Shown: piece after piece, positions 31,037 to 37,206 of the stretch
Layout of the letters: the number at the start of each line of letters is the position of its first letter
Position numbering within the stretch: position 1 is the first letter of the stretch
The notes under the pieces: generated by a model
Database searches by the model: none
What the model saw: the letters and a program-made list of their open reading frames with translations, nothing else
Told to the model about the DNA's origin: nothing
Assembly: GCA_035516255.1 (NCBI GenBank)
Contig: DATJAL010000001.1
Span: forward strand, 62,001 to 126,000
Direction of reading: 5' to 3'
Length of the DNA stretch: 64,000 bases
Source of the DNA: Chitinivibrionales bacterium
GTDB taxonomy: Bacteria; Fibrobacterota; Chitinivibrionia; Chitinivibrionales; FEN-1185
Position numbers and translations under genes: made by a program

Positions 31037-31810
31037 CTATGGCAAGACAAGGCCTATCCTCTCCGGTCGAATTCCATTTTCAATCGAAAACGAAAAATAA
31101 ACCTGCCTTGCCTTGCCAAGCAATTCGGTGAGCGGTATGGGTCCATAATGACGCGAATCATCGGAGTGGCCGGCATTATCGCCAAGCGCGAATACATGTC
31201 CATGCGGAACAATAATTACATTTCCCTCGAGCTTGAGCGTGTCACCGGGCAATCCGCCTATCCTTTTTATGAATAATTTGCTCCTGTCGTCAGGATAGCG
31301 GAAGAGAATGACATCGCCTTTTTTCGGCGCATGATGCTTGTAATACGTTTTGTCCACAATCACATAATCCCCCGGAACCACCGCCGGCGTCATTGATGCG
31401 GTGACGATCCTGCAGAATTGCACGATGCCGTCCGACACGTACGAAAACGCTGCCGAGGAAATGAAAACCGAGCACAGCATCCACATTGCGGTGTAGAAAT
31501 ACCACCGGTTAAACCACTTCACCATGAACCCTTTTCCCCTGCGTGATGCCGCAAGCCACGCCTCAATGCTGAAAACGATGTAAATGGCCAGGCTGAGCAG
31601 CGCCACCATGCCTATACCGAGCATCAGAGACGCATTGGGAAACATCATCACGATCCGGAGTCCCGCGATTACGGTCATGAGGAACAGGCCGAAAAAGCAG
31701 AGCCCTTTTGTCAATTCTCCGTTGTACATCTGCCCCAGGCCCGGCAGAATGAGCCCGGCTACAAGCGCGCTAATTTTTTTCCTGTCCTTGATCTGCGCAG
31801 CCGAATCCAT
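31037..31810 (-). CDS. lepB: signal peptidase I with an extra N-terminal membrane module
   Basis: The ATG at 31810 has GGAGG just upstream. Residues about 12-125 form a multi-helix membrane region that begins GLILPGLGQMYNGELTKG, a motif typical of small TM2/DUF-type membrane proteins and not of LepB. The peptidase part follows: catalytic Ser139 (TASMTPAVVPGDYV) and Lys182 (KLFIKRIGGLPGD), then FALGDNAGHSDDSRHYGPI, the S26 signature. The peptidase core is about 120 residues, short but complete. It is last in an operon with an ECF sigma factor and a 71-residue membrane protein, and may serve special substrates and not bulk secretion. Confidence 0.85.
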   Translation of the reverse strand: MDSAAQIKDRKKISALVAGLILPGLGQMYNGELTKGLCFFGLFLMTVIAGLRIVMMFPNASLMLGIGMVALLSLAIYIVFSIEAWLAASRRGKGFMVKWFNRWYFYTAMWMLCSVFISSAAFSYVSDGIVQFCRIVTASMTPAVVPGDYVIVDKTYYKHHAPKKGDVILFRYPDDRSKLFIKRIGGLPGDTLKLEGNVIIVPHGHVFALGDNAGHSDDSRHYGPIPLTELLGKARQVYFSFSIENGIRPERIGLVLP

Positions 31811-31826
31811 GCAGCACCTCCGTTTA

Positions 31827-32042
31827 TTATCGTGACAGCACTGGAGCAAATACGGTGTAATATAATCGGATAAAATTGATAATCGCGATTCCGCAGCCGG
31901 CGAGAACCGCACCCGTCTGCAGAAAGGCCGCCGCAAGACCTTTGATTGATATTACGGAACGCCTTGCCTTGCGCGCCTCATAAGCGAGGACCGCTTCCAT
32001 CGTCCTTTCGACAAACCGGTCAGAAGGTACGAAATTATTCAT
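31827..32042 (-). CDS. 71-residue membrane protein, candidate anti-sigma partner
   Basis: The ATG overlaps the sigma-factor stop in an ATGA junction, so translation is coupled. Residues 1-32 are polar (RFVERTMEAVLAYEARKARRS) and residues about 34-65 are a hydrophobic helix or helical hairpin. Position suggests an anti-sigma factor, but the zinc anti-sigma signature (H-x3-C-x2-C) is absent and the cytoplasmic part is very short. It could instead be a truncated or minimal anti-sigma protein, or simply a small membrane protein. lepB follows after 16 bp. Confidence 0.55.
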   Translation of the reverse strand: MNNFVPSDRFVERTMEAVLAYEARKARRSVISIKGLAAAFLQTGAVLAGCGIAIINFIRLYYTVFAPVLSR

Positions 32043-32605
32043 AGCAAACCACCTCCGCCATGCGTATTTAAAATGGCTTTTAATTTCTCACGGGCCCTGA
32101 ACAGTCTTGTTTTTACCGTATTTCGCGGCAGTTTCCCTCTACTGGATATTTCATCTATACTCATTCCTTCAATACTGCTCAAAATTGTCGACCTGAACGG
32201 CTCATCCAACACGGCAAGCGCCGCTTCAAGCGACTTTCTTCGTTCCTTCTGTTCCAGCAGGATGCCGGGATTTCCTTCATGTCCCGTTATTGTTTCATCC
32301 TCAGGCAGAGATATTTCTTTTCGCTTTTTCATTTTCCTTATTTCAGAAATGCACCGGTTACGCGCAATCGTAAACAGCCACACTGAAAAAGGCACACCCC
32401 GCTTTTCATCAAAATTTCCAATTGACTGATACACGCTGAGAAAAACTTCCTGCCCGATGTCCTCAACAATTCCTTTTTCATGCACGGTATGGTAAATGAA
32501 ATTGAGCAAATTCCGGTGATACCGCTCCACTAAAACAGAGAAGGAGCCGGCATCTCCGTTTTTTACAAGCTTGATAATTTCGAGATCTTCCACGGTGCAA
32601 TCCAA
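32039..32605 (-). CDS. ECF-type RNA polymerase sigma factor
   Basis: A 188-residue sigma-70-family protein with region 2 (FSVLVERYHRNLLNFIYHTV...DIGQEVFLSVYQSIGNFDEKR and FSVWLFTIARNRCISEIRK) and region 4 (SIEGMSIDEISSRGKLPRNTVKTRLFRAREKLK). I use a TTG start at 32605 with a GAGG only three bases before it; a GTG four codons downstream is an alternative. The gene is the first of the sigma/membrane-protein/lepB operon. Confidence 0.9.
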   Translation of the reverse strand: MDCTVEDLEIIKLVKNGDAGSFSVLVERYHRNLLNFIYHTVHEKGIVEDIGQEVFLSVYQSIGNFDEKRGVPFSVWLFTIARNRCISEIRKMKKRKEISLPEDETITGHEGNPGILLEQKERRKSLEAALAVLDEPFRSTILSSIEGMSIDEISSRGKLPRNTVKTRLFRAREKLKAILNTHGGGGLL

Positions 32606-32805
32606 TGACCTCTTTTACCTGTTCGTTAACACCATAAAATACGCAATATGCCGGAAATGGTTCCCGTAAATAGTGTTTTTATCCGGCAAAAGCCCATTAA
32701 TTATTTTTTTTCCACGTCGTTTCAGGTTTGATGCCGCACTTATTTCATGTATTTTATTGCAATTACGGCAATTGATGATATTTTTTCTTCAAGGATGGTT
32801 GATGT

Positions 32806-34217: not shown

Positions 34218-35723
34218 ATGAAATATCTTTTCTCGATGTATTCGATCCTGCTTATCACGCTTTCCGCCGGTGCTTTCGATATCAAAGTGCCCGTCCACTA
34301 CGACACGCTCCAAAACGGACTTAAAATCATCGTGGTCCCCGATTCCAACGTCGCGGTCGTCTCGTGCAGGCTCTATTATTTCGTGGGGTCCATGTACGAG
34401 CAGTTCAGCAGGTCGGGCCTGTCCCACATGTACGAGCACATGATGTTCAAGGGAACGCGGCGGCTGAATACAAAGAATTTTGCCAAGGAATCGGTGTGGC
34501 TTGCGAAAATAGATTCGGTCGATAAAATCATCTACGCCCTGAAGAACCGGGGAATACCCGATACCTCGGCCGAGCGGACGAGCTTGCGGAGGGAAATCGT
34601 CGGGTACATGGACAAAGAACGTGAATACGTCAAAAAAGATGAGATATGGGAATTATATATGGGCGCCGGCGGCACGCATCTGAACGCGTGGACCGCGGAT
34701 GACATGACCGGCTACATCGTAACGCTTCCCAAAAACAAGGTGGAACTGTTTTACTGGATAGAATCCGACCGCATGGCCAACCCCGTGTTCAGGGAATTCT
34801 ACAGCGAGCGCGAGGTGGTGCTCGAGGAACGGCGGATGCGCTATGAAAACCAGCCGGCCAACCGTTTTGATGAATATCTCAATGCTTTGTTCTATATGGC
34901 CCACCCGTACCGGCTTCCCACCATCGGCTGGAAATCGGACATCCAGAACTACACGATCCAGGATCTTGCCAACCACGTCAAACGGTTCTATACGCCCGAC
35001 AACGCTTTGATCGTGCTCGTCGGAAACATCGACCCGGGTAAGGCGGTTTCCGATATCAGGAGATATTTCGGCGGCATTCCGCGTGCCGCGGTGCCCAAAC
35101 AGGAAGTTGTCACCCGAGAACCGCAGCCCATCGGCGAAACGAGATTCACCGTGCGCGACGAGGCTGAACCGATGATCGACATCCTGTTTCACACCCCCGG
35201 CTACAGTAATGACGATCTCTATAAACTTGACATAGTGGAATCAATTTTCTCGGGCCGCAGCGGACGCCTCTACGACCGGCTGGTCAACCGCGAGGAGCTC
35301 TGCACCAATGCCGAGGCCAGCAATGCGTTCAGGCTCGACAACGGATACTTCGAGATCACGGCGACCCTTAAAAGAGGAGTCGATCCTTTAAAAGTTGAAC
35401 GCATTATCAGGGAGGAAGTGGGCACTTTGGTCAAAAAGCCCCCCTCGCCCCGCGAGATGGAAAGAATTAAAAACTCAATACGGATGAATTTTGTGTGGAA
35501 CCTCAAAAGTCTTGAAGGGCTGTCCGACCGGCTCGCATGGTTCCAGCGGTTGGGCTCATGGAAAGACCTTCTTACCTATCCCGACAAAATCGCGGCGGTA
35601 AAATCGGAAGATGTGCCTGCGATCGTTGAAAAATATTTTGATTTTGACAAGGCCACTATCGGGCTTCTGTTGGAGAAAAGCGACAACGATGCAAAGAAAC
35701 AAAAAGACAAAGCGACAAAGTAA
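34218..35723 (+). CDS. M16-family zinc peptidase, active subunit
   Basis: A signal peptide (first 20 residues) precedes a 501-residue M16 (insulinase/MPP-like) protein. The inverted zinc motif HMYEH is at residues 70-74 (H70, E73, H74), and the distal glutamate is in EREVVLEERR (about 199-204). Family members are periplasmic or exported proteases of small unfolded peptides. The C-terminal domain has VNREELCTNAEA where a partner subunit would normally contribute substrate-binding R and Y. The next gene encodes an M16 protein without the zinc motif, so the two probably form an obligate heterodimer. An expected ribosome site is weak. Confidence 0.9.
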   Translation: MKYLFSMYSILLITLSAGAFDIKVPVHYDTLQNGLKIIVVPDSNVAVVSCRLYYFVGSMYEQFSRSGLSHMYEHMMFKGTRRLNTKNFAKESVWLAKIDSVDKIIYALKNRGIPDTSAERTSLRREIVGYMDKEREYVKKDEIWELYMGAGGTHLNAWTADDMTGYIVTLPKNKVELFYWIESDRMANPVFREFYSEREVVLEERRMRYENQPANRFDEYLNALFYMAHPYRLPTIGWKSDIQNYTIQDLANHVKRFYTPDNALIVLVGNIDPGKAVSDIRRYFGGIPRAAVPKQEVVTREPQPIGETRFTVRDEAEPMIDILFHTPGYSNDDLYKLDIVESIFSGRSGRLYDRLVNREELCTNAEASNAFRLDNGYFEITATLKRGVDPLKVERIIREEVGTLVKKPPSPREMERIKNSIRMNFVWNLKSLEGLSDRLAWFQRLGSWKDLLTYPDKIAAVKSEDVPAIVEKYFDFDKATIGLLLEKSDNDAKKQKDKATK

Positions 35724-35745
35724 AAAGAGAGAAACCGTAAACAGT

Positions 35746-37206
35746 ATGGAAGATTTCACTAAACTCCTGATTTTCGCAGTGTCCACATTTCTTCTGGTGT
35801 CAAACCTGTCTGCCCAGGTCCCTGATTCTCCAAGGAAAATCGTCTACCCGGCGCTCGACTGGAAAGTGCCGCTCGGTACGCCGTACCGGCAAGTGCTCAG
35901 TAATGGGCTTGTCGCATATATCGCCGAGGAACACTCGCTTCCCTATTTCAAGCTTTCGGGTTATGTGCGGTACGGGTCCATTTGCGATCCGGCGGGCAAG
36001 GAAGGCATCTCATCGCTGATGGCGACCCTCATGCGCACCGGCGGGACGCAAACCTACCAATCGGACACGCTCGACTATCTCATCGACCAGTATGCGCTCA
36101 GGATTTCCGTCTCCGTCTCTGAAACGCAGGTGAATTTTTCCTGCGCAAGCCTTTCGGAATACGCGGACACCTGCCTGTTCATGCTTTCGCAGATCCTGTT
36201 CCATCCGTCGTTTGAGGACAAAAAAATAAAAAAACAGACATCCCTTTTCCTCGAATCCATTGCGCACCGGTTTGACAATCCCGACCCGATTCTGGACGCC
36301 GCGTACGAAAAGGCAATGTATAATGACGGACAGAACAGCAGGCTTCCGACCGCGGCAAGCGTGGCGCGGATCAGCAAAAAGGACATTGTCGCCCTGCACA
36401 AAAACATCTTCAAAACCGAAAATATGATCATCGCGGTATCGGGGGATTTTTCCAAAAAAGCAATGGAACAGAAACTGTGCGCGCTGTTTCCGAAGGCCGG
36501 AGCCGCGGCCGTGGATTCTCTTTTTCCGCACATCAGCGTCAAGCCGACGGCGAAATCCGTTATCGTCAACAAAGCCATCACGCAGAGTTACATCCGCATG
36601 GGGCTTCCGCTGTTCAAGCGGCCGCATGACGATTACTATGCGGTGCAGGTGCTCAACCTCATTCTCGGCGGCGAAGGATTCACCTCGCGCCTCGGCAGCA
36701 AGGTGCGCTCGGACGAGGGACTCGCCTATGTCGTCTACTCGAGCGCGGGCTCGAATTATTTCTACCCCTCAACCTTTTTCATAGAATTCCACACAAAAAA
36801 CGAGACGGCGGCCAAGGCCATGGCGCTTTCATACAATGAGGTCACCCGCATACGGACGTCGGGCGTCACTGCCGAAGAACTTTCACACGCAAAGAAAGTG
36901 CTCATTGATGCGTTGCCCTCGATGTTCCGAACGGCCGATGACATCGTTGACAATTACGCAGGCAATGAATACCTTAAACAGCCTCCCGATCATTTTACCG
37001 CATACCCCGACAAAATAAACGCGCTTACCCAGGCGGATATCGCGGCGGCGGCAAAGAAGTATCTTGACCCTGCGGCAATCACGTATACCGTCGTGGGCGA
37101 TACCGCGGTGATTTTTAAAAACGACACGATATCGGGCTTTTCTTTCCGTTCGCAGAAGCCGATTGTTGCGGTGAATAATCCGGATTCGCTCCCGGAAATG
37201 AAATGA
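35746..37206 (+). CDS. M16-family protein, inactive partner subunit
   Basis: The ATG at 35746 starts a 486-residue exported protein (signal ending near LSAQ). The M16 fold is evident from LSNGLVAYIAEEHSLPYFKLSGYVRYGS and GGEGFTSRLGSKVRSDEGLAYVVYS. The HxxEH motif is missing: the position reads GISSLMATLM. The R...Y pair in KVRSDEGLAY, which binds substrate in active/inactive M16 pairs, is kept here and lost in the upstream partner. It begins 22 bp after the first M16 gene. Confidence 0.88.
   Translation: MEDFTKLLIFAVSTFLLVSNLSAQVPDSPRKIVYPALDWKVPLGTPYRQVLSNGLVAYIAEEHSLPYFKLSGYVRYGSICDPAGKEGISSLMATLMRTGGTQTYQSDTLDYLIDQYALRISVSVSETQVNFSCASLSEYADTCLFMLSQILFHPSFEDKKIKKQTSLFLESIAHRFDNPDPILDAAYEKAMYNDGQNSRLPTAASVARISKKDIVALHKNIFKTENMIIAVSGDFSKKAMEQKLCALFPKAGAAAVDSLFPHISVKPTAKSVIVNKAITQSYIRMGLPLFKRPHDDYYAVQVLNLILGGEGFTSRLGSKVRSDEGLAYVVYSSAGSNYFYPSTFFIEFHTKNETAAKAMALSYNEVTRIRTSGVTAEELSHAKKVLIDALPSMFRTADDIVDNYAGNEYLKQPPDHFTAYPDKINALTQADIAAAAKKYLDPAAITYTVVGDTAVIFKNDTISGFSFRSQKPIVAVNNPDSLPEMK

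Follow-up and report, generated by a model that had tools for sequence, protein, structure and literature searches.

In the stretch of 64,000 nucleotides analyzed here (the window), an ECF sigma factor gene is followed by two further genes, one encoding a small membrane protein and the other a type I signal peptidase (SPase), and this order recurs in every genome in which the sigma factor family was found. Gene order, a common promoter motif, conservation of the trio, replacement of one peptidase type by another, and a helix in the small protein like those of anti-sigma factors were established by computation. We read the trio as one autoregulated operon that would adjust SPase capacity, with the small protein acting as a membrane anti-sigma factor, and put the chance of this reading at about even. 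The first-pass annotation had proposed a compact envelope- or secretion-stress circuit made of a sigma factor, a minimal anti-sigma partner, and a dedicated peptidase, an interpretation that, taken as a whole, is partly supported.

SPase is an essential enzyme and a drug target. To our knowledge, it is unsettled how bacteria match the amount of SPase to the load of exported protein, and the trio would make this question of supply testable in a very small system. The trio is undescribed in titles and abstracts among the matches listed in a literature search, outside of which most subscription journals lay.

Organization of the Locus

The trio, the module within its SPase, and its promoter occupy the following positions in the window:

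32605-32039, minus strand: ECF sigma factor gene, 188 amino acids from a TTG start; Pfam Sigma70_r2 and r4_2
32042-31827, minus strand: small membrane protein gene, 71 amino acids; proposed minimal anti-sigma factor
31810-31037, minus strand: type I SPase gene, 257 amino acids; Pfam Peptidase_S26
31541..31780, minus strand: N-terminal module of the SPase, approximately residues 11-90; helices in the model, PGLGQMYNGE conserved
32640..32664, minus strand: ECF-type promoter GGAAC-N15-GCGTA (GGAACCATTTCCGGCATATTGCGTA), 34 nt upstream of the sigma TTG

The three genes are coupled as originally described: the sigma and small-protein genes share an ATGA overlap, and a 16-nt gap containing a GGAGG ribosome site separates the small-protein gene from the SPase gene. 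The start of the sigma gene is ambiguous. An in-frame GTG at 32593 fits the starts of relatives better than the TTG, whereas the TTG has the better placed ribosome site and, judged by most relatives, the better promoter distance. The encoded protein contains regions 2 (Sigma70_r2, PF04542, residues 25-93, E=1.2e-17) and 4.2 (r4_2, PF08281, residues 126-175, E=4.6e-9), both scoring above the cut-off, and nothing else, as expected of an ECF sigma factor. Its identity to aligned relatives is 37-49%.

On one side, the trio is flanked by purH (identified by Pfam) and then by a topA-like gene, which we take to be topA from its sequence. A chorismate synthase gene and two M16 peptidase genes (Pfam) lie on the other side. 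In a genome of the same genus (G001), purH and topA are present and the trio is absent beside them. The GC content of the trio is 0.487 vs. 0.522 (sd 0.044), and a plasmid comparison gave no record covering 80% of the window SPase. The absence from G001, the GC content, and the occurrence of the family in just one of 167 genomes of the phylum bear on a possible horizontal gain in the window's lineage, against which the deepest, weakly supported position of the window sigma factor in its clade can be set.

Distribution and Evolution of the Trio

Whole-genome profile searches were run with the SPase and with the sigma factor as query. The sigma profile, applied to three groups, located the family in 19 of 833 genomes. 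Within the window's phylum, it is present in one of 167 genomes, that of the window itself (G000, E=6.2e-82; next match, 6.4e-36). The class of G167 contributes 15 of 277 genomes under a limit of 1e-35, every one of them at E<=4.1e-73. For the class of G168, 389 genomes taken from a larger group were searched, with at most eight candidates scored per genome; three have matches at E<=1.4e-77 (next match, 4.5e-37). A small membrane protein gene and an SPase gene follow the sigma gene, in order, in 19 of the 19 family members, which argues that the trio is not a product of chance; conservation in related genomes, a check proposed by the first-pass annotation, is thereby borne out.

The SPase of the trio exists in two architectures. 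Nine trios (type A: G000, G167, G168, G169, G297, G353, G356, G358, and G713) encode a two-domain SPase, and ten (type B: G314, G329, G357, G370, G373, G376, G392, G395, G406, and G429) encode an ordinary LepB of ~215 amino acids. Type A trios were first found through the SPase and then recovered by the sigma profile. The first type B trio (G370) was found via the promoter motif and the remaining nine via the sigma profile; therefore, an SPase neighbor was not selected for in this type. The SPase frame is split in G356, and a run of N lies between the small gene and the SPase in G297. A candidate fusion of small protein and SPase at the latter locus (L076) was rejected because the shared frame runs across the N stretch. 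In G642, a type A SPase sits at a contig end, with the upstream genes beyond the contig. Three further sets that are more distant and possibly related (type C: G531, G550, and G555), found through their SPase, combine a sigma factor, an 83-84-amino-acid membrane protein, and an SPase of the GLGHIYCG type. A protein scan of named genomes confirmed 19 loci, mostly module-only matches, with the whole trio at two of them (L037, a Geobacteraceae MAG, and L038, a Desulfobacterales MAG). At 62 other listed ECF loci, a number that includes repeats of one place, no SPase was found in the flank examined (~1500 nt, in some cases shorter); outside the 19 trios, only the three type C loci have one.

Types A and B group together in the sigma tree (support 100/98), and type B forms one clade (98/99); the trios thus reflect few evolutionary events, which weighs against the proposed circuit. 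The window sigma factor is the deepest branch of its clade, with weak support. Because the tree joins the two types, with type B as one clade, the simplest reading is that one SPase architecture was swapped once for another while the sigma factor, the small protein, and the promoter were retained. The replacement of the SPase type in an otherwise constant setting suggests that the SPase as such, rather than its module, is central to the circuit. This is the strongest hint as to what the circuit is about, and it comes from one event. The same exchange of a two-domain SPase for an ordinary LepB lends weight to the earlier proposal that the peptidase is a dedicated one. Two ECF sigma factors of another family from the window's phylum (L206 and L207) are placed by the tree close to the type A/B clade, and the flank examined contains no SPase for either; the protein behind the L207 sigma factor matches the small-protein helix at E=0.12.

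Promoter and Regulon

The promoter motif GGAAC-N15-GCGTA, with identical spacing throughout, precedes the sigma start by 54-73 nt in 19 of the 19 type A and B trios, which also have further promoter positions (TTT and C) in common. It is absent from the three type C loci examined (3/3). Its presence in all 19 trios makes autoregulation of the operon by its own sigma factor likely.

The extent of the regulon was estimated with the strict pattern GGAACY-N14-GCGTA alone. Across 11 genomes, this pattern has 1-9 copies per genome vs. 3-10 in the reversed control; the window genome has five vs. five, and only G370 exceeds its control (nine vs. eight). That the strict pattern is no commoner than in the reversed control argues for a very small regulon, and a large one was rejected within the scope of this pattern and these 11 genomes. 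A second promoter-like copy lies between the small gene and the SPase gene in G358, where it is exact, and in G713, where it is imperfect. In G353, a strong copy stands 81 nt before the gene for a 319-amino-acid, lipoprotein-like Peptidase_MA_2 protein (E=9.3e-9; L145:1539-2579). This gene is possibly a second target of the sigma factor, and the extra site suggests that the regulon is not always confined to the operon. Besides its intact type B trio, G370 carries a broken type A remnant (L148; G370:C46, ~64.9-65.8 kb) that consists of the promoter, a broken sigma start, and a truncated SPase, with an opposite-strand ORF in between. This remnant and the G353 site, like the type B trio of G370, came to light through the strict pattern.

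Signal Peptidases of the Trio

Judged by its motifs, the window protein is a type I SPase with an intact catalytic apparatus: it matches Peptidase_S26 (E=2.8e-31) and contains Ser139, Lys182, and the box E sequence GDNAGHSDDSR. The best Foldseek match of its model (mean pLDDT 73, moderate) is E. coli LepB (1t7d, E=3.9e-9), with which it shares the fold, the Ser-Lys dyad, and box E. Unlike LepB, it has an extra N-terminal membrane module, and the insert that separates motifs D and E is short, with S26 profile positions 94-129 unmatched; its S26 domain is short. The moderate-confidence model places helices of the module at residues 12-21, 25-29, 33-55, and 59-90, and PGLGQMYNGE is invariant across six aligned sequences, including that of the window. 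The membrane module described earlier as foreign to LepB is real, matching DUF5683 at E=0.0024 and DUF6677 at E=0.02, both weakly and below the curated cut-offs, but it is not unique to this setting. In the two classes searched, it is common for an SPase to carry a GLGQ/GLGH module where the flank examined has no sigma factor, and ten trios lack the module, so it was rejected as a hallmark of the circuit.

The catalytic motifs of type A SPases are intact in the window, G169, and G713. Ser and Lys are kept and box E is lost in G168 and G297, whereas Arg replaces the catalytic Lys in four of the nine (G167, G353, G356, and G358); the Ser of the G356 enzyme sits in the other frame. In the type C set of G531, Asn replaces Ser. 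The losses of Lys or box E indicate that SPase activity was not kept in all lineages, and in six of nine type A SPases they may represent decay. Type B LepBs have intact active-site motifs in ten of ten cases, and each of these ten genomes has another full-length S26 match elsewhere, as judged by profile match. The trio SPase therefore looks like an extra, switchable copy. The window genome likewise holds an ordinary lepB with all ordinary SPase motifs (C34:28080-28568, 219-amino-acid frame), the second gene that the first-pass annotation had suggested looking for, together with further S26 matches besides the trio SPase.

The intact active sites of the type B LepBs and the second full-length S26 match in every type B genome would also fit an ordinary sigma/anti-sigma envelope-stress switch, in which the SPase is a mere reserve output that does not act back and an unlinked protease or lipid signal frees the sigma factor. 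The promoter common to the trios and the conserved output gene agree with such a switch. It would be strange, however, for an enzyme that is purely an output to have lost its catalytic Lys, as four of the nine type A SPases have, and the small protein has no periplasmic sensor domain. We regard this alternative as somewhat unlikely, though worth serious consideration.

Of 27 two-domain-kind SPases that have no sigma neighbor, 24 show the GLGQ/GLGH pattern itself, and the catalytic Ser is replaced by Ala, Thr, Asn, or Gly in eight (L087, L090, L092, L095, L101, L106, L108, and L112). From these sequences, the two-domain SPase family seems prone to turning non-catalytic. In G167, a candidate ordinary lepB (L066; G167:C155:838-1359) was rejected because Ala replaces its Ser and Ser replaces its Lys; it is a probable pseudo-signal peptidase. 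Beside L066, its contig carries another S26 piece, a partial one (C155:103-243), and partial S26 pieces are present elsewhere in this genome. In G429, a lipoprotein signal peptidase gene (PF01252, E=2.6e-31; L165:2942-3451) directly follows the trio lepB.

The Small Membrane Protein

The small protein of the window comprises an N-terminal helix (PSDRFVERTMEAV), a single C-terminal membrane helix, and the tail TVFAPVLSR. Its model, based on three sequences, is one long helix (residues 8-70, mean pLDDT 74). Identity to nine aligned relatives is only 19-37%; P6, F10, and M15 are invariant in the ten aligned members, and the consensus E-x-x-P-S-x-D-F-V-x-(K/R)-V-M-x-x-V precedes the membrane helix. 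As previously noted for this protein, the zinc motif of anti-sigma factors is missing: neither HxxxCxxC nor an anti-sigma zinc domain is present in the window sequence, for which Pfam and NCBIfam searches gave nothing at E<=1. Of ten aligned relatives, two match DUF2275 weakly, one at E=0.01 and the other at E=0.074, short of the cut-off.

A profile of the small protein was run over 9227 ORFs of the collected loci. At E<=2, seven of eight out-of-family matches lie directly downstream of unrelated ECF sigma factors, vs. 146 of 9197 other ORFs (Fisher 2e-12). The corresponding counts are 10 of 14 vs. 143 of 9191 at E<=10 and 12 of 21 vs. 141 of 9184 at E<=20. In a reversed-sequence control, none of three, seven, and nine matches, respectively, lies behind an ECF sigma factor. 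When only gene-like ORFs are considered, all six matches at E<=2 are behind ECF sigma factors, vs. 43 of 863. Each match is non-significant alone and counts only as part of the set; in addition, the ORFs are non-independent and the loci are ECF-rich, for which the background counts correct only roughly. HxxxCxxC is present in four of the 12 downstream matches (L037, L191, L193, and L201) and in none of the other eight. In these four, the matched helix starts 26-27 residues after HxxxCxxC. The helix of the small protein thus resembles a stretch of four proteins behind ECF sigma factors that have the zinc motif of class I (zf-HC2) anti-sigma factors, e.g., at L037:6845-7966, whereas the zinc domain itself is wholly missing from the small protein.

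The lack of a zinc domain, together with the matches behind ECF sigma factors, leads us to read the small protein as a reduced anti-sigma factor. It looks like one cut down to a juxtamembrane helix, the stretch that would link an anti-sigma domain to the membrane, and a membrane anchor, with position after the sigma gene and a membrane helix both present and homology represented by sub-threshold matches taken as a set. The minimal anti-sigma partner of the first-pass annotation gains sequence support in that the profile points to downstream partners of other ECF sigma factors, each match being below significance.

Class II minimal anti-sigma factors, of the CnrY type, embrace the sigma factor from outside. 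The four PDB matches of the small-protein profile at E<=1 include no CnrY chain. A short N-terminal cytoplasmic part followed by one membrane helix is likewise reported for the CnrY-CnrH and AabA-SigAb systems, and AabA is encoded after its sigma factor, as the small protein is (PMC12153292, PMC8103513). Unlike AabA-SigAb, the trio has no third sensor protein such as AabB and has an SPase instead. The trio suggests which part of an anti-sigma factor is dispensable.

A Proposed Circuit for Signal Peptidase Supply

In the proposed circuit, the sigma factor would read the promoter before its own gene, so that sigma factor, small protein, and SPase are all made. The N-terminal amphipathic helix of the small protein would hold the sigma factor at the membrane, and the single C-terminal membrane helix would leave almost no periplasmic part. 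When SPase capacity falls short, the small protein would release the sigma factor or be degraded, and the free sigma factor would drive production of more SPase. As no sensor domain is built into the small protein, the likely signal is the condition of the membrane or of the neighboring SPase; feedback by SPase is suggested by this absence together with the constancy of the SPase partner. Transcription as an operon, binding of the sigma factor, the mechanism of its release, the signal, and SPase feedback are the parts of the circuit that we infer. Such a three-gene circuit would make do with an anti-sigma factor of ~60-70 residues that lacks a periplasmic sensor, its partner being the peptidase itself.

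In E. coli, the rpoE-rseABC genes followed by lepA-lepB also place an ECF sigma operon near lepB. However, RseA has full anti-sigma and periplasmic domains, and lepB is not known to be its dedicated partner. Closer parallels are found in the Bacillus group, in which SPases are reported to act on the anti-sigma factors RsiV and RsiP (PMC8844934). SigP-RsiP-SipP of Bacillus thuringiensis and SigV-RsiV-SipS/SipT likewise connect an ECF sigma factor, a membrane anti-sigma factor, and an SPase in one chain (PMC8844934). Unlike in those systems, the SPase of the trio is the third gene of a putative operon. Moreover, RsiP and RsiV have an extracellular part and are cleaved by SPase, whereas the small protein has no periplasmic domain and, in type A, has Pro at P1'. 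The trio would extend the RsiV/RsiP-type link between SPase and anti-sigma factor beyond the Bacillus group.

The tails of the small proteins differ between the two types. Type A proteins extend ~ten alignment columns beyond type B, with V/F/A-F/L-A/S-P, and all nine tails contain V/F/A-x-A/S-Pro. Type B proteins stop within the membrane helix and follow the rule AGGGTxxGI(F/L)K..PVF; Pro is present in nine of ten tails, and the preceding residue is Ala in four of ten and Val in six of ten. If the SPase were the site-1 protease of the small protein, cleavage of the tail would start degradation and free the sigma factor, as in the SipP/RsiP and SipS/SipT/RsiV pairs. SPase cleavage of anti-sigma factors is on record, with RsiP cut at VQS near its membrane helix (PMC8844934), and five of the nine type A tails have V-F-A or V-L-S just past the membrane helix. 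By sequence, however, no cleavable SPase site follows the membrane helix, since Pro comes next after V-F-A, as it does after the corresponding residues in nine of nine type A tails; Pro at this position is reported to prevent SPase cleavage (PMC4704075). Type B proteins, in turn, end three residues past the corresponding place, with Val at P1 in six of ten, and the catalytic Lys is missing in four of nine type A SPases. Taken together, we consider cleavage by the trio SPase quite improbable.

Within the preferred reading of an operon that adjusts SPase capacity, the tail could instead be an uncleavable mimic of a signal peptide that senses SPase occupancy, a speculative addition that we hold to be distinctly unlikely. 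The mimic would comprise the membrane helix, V/F/A at P3, Ala or Ser at P1, and Pro at P1' (9/9 type A). Free SPase would bind the tail and keep the anti-sigma factor in place. Once SPase is busy with exports or inhibited, the tail would be freed, the anti-sigma factor would fail, and the sigma factor would make SPase. SPases without Lys would retain the binding cleft as a pure sensor. If true, the number of free SPases would be read by the circuit directly. Against this stand the type B tails, which fit less well, the Phe at P3 in three type A tails, which is unusual, and the possibility that the six type A SPases without Lys or box E are decaying. In type B trios, with their shorter tails, what is read might be the membrane helix and not the cleft. 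A precedent for the uncleaved state is a signal-peptide-like peptide with Pro at P1', which is described as sitting uncleaved in the SpsB cleft (PMC4704075).

Other Possible Partners

The SPase might also be a special-cargo peptidase, for pilins or surface proteins, that is co-regulated by the sigma factor; the small protein would then help to assemble the peptidase instead of acting as an anti-sigma factor. SipA of Streptococcus pyogenes, which is described as needed for pili despite lacking Ser and Lys (PMC4049620), would be a model for such a role, and the replaced Ser in eight of 27 two-domain-kind SPases without a sigma neighbor and the recurrence of an M16 peptidase pair close to the trios of the window, G353, and G356 are compatible with it. 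Nevertheless, no pilin-like or other cargo family recurs beside the trios when the loci, most of ~3.5 kb, are surveyed by eye, and the N-terminal helix of the small protein resembles anti-sigma partners. This alternative appears highly improbable.

The window proteins of the M16 pair have no match in the other 16 trio loci, most of which span only ~3.5 kb. The pair lies behind the chorismate synthase gene in the window (34218-37206), and behind the SPase on the opposite strand in G353 and G356 (L150:5615-8659 and L151, ~5.9-8.8 kb). Its recurrence suggests that the SPase is perhaps not the sole partner; the M16 neighbors may be a second functional link, or may be there by chance. The M16 proteins are 33-36% identical in their best pieces.
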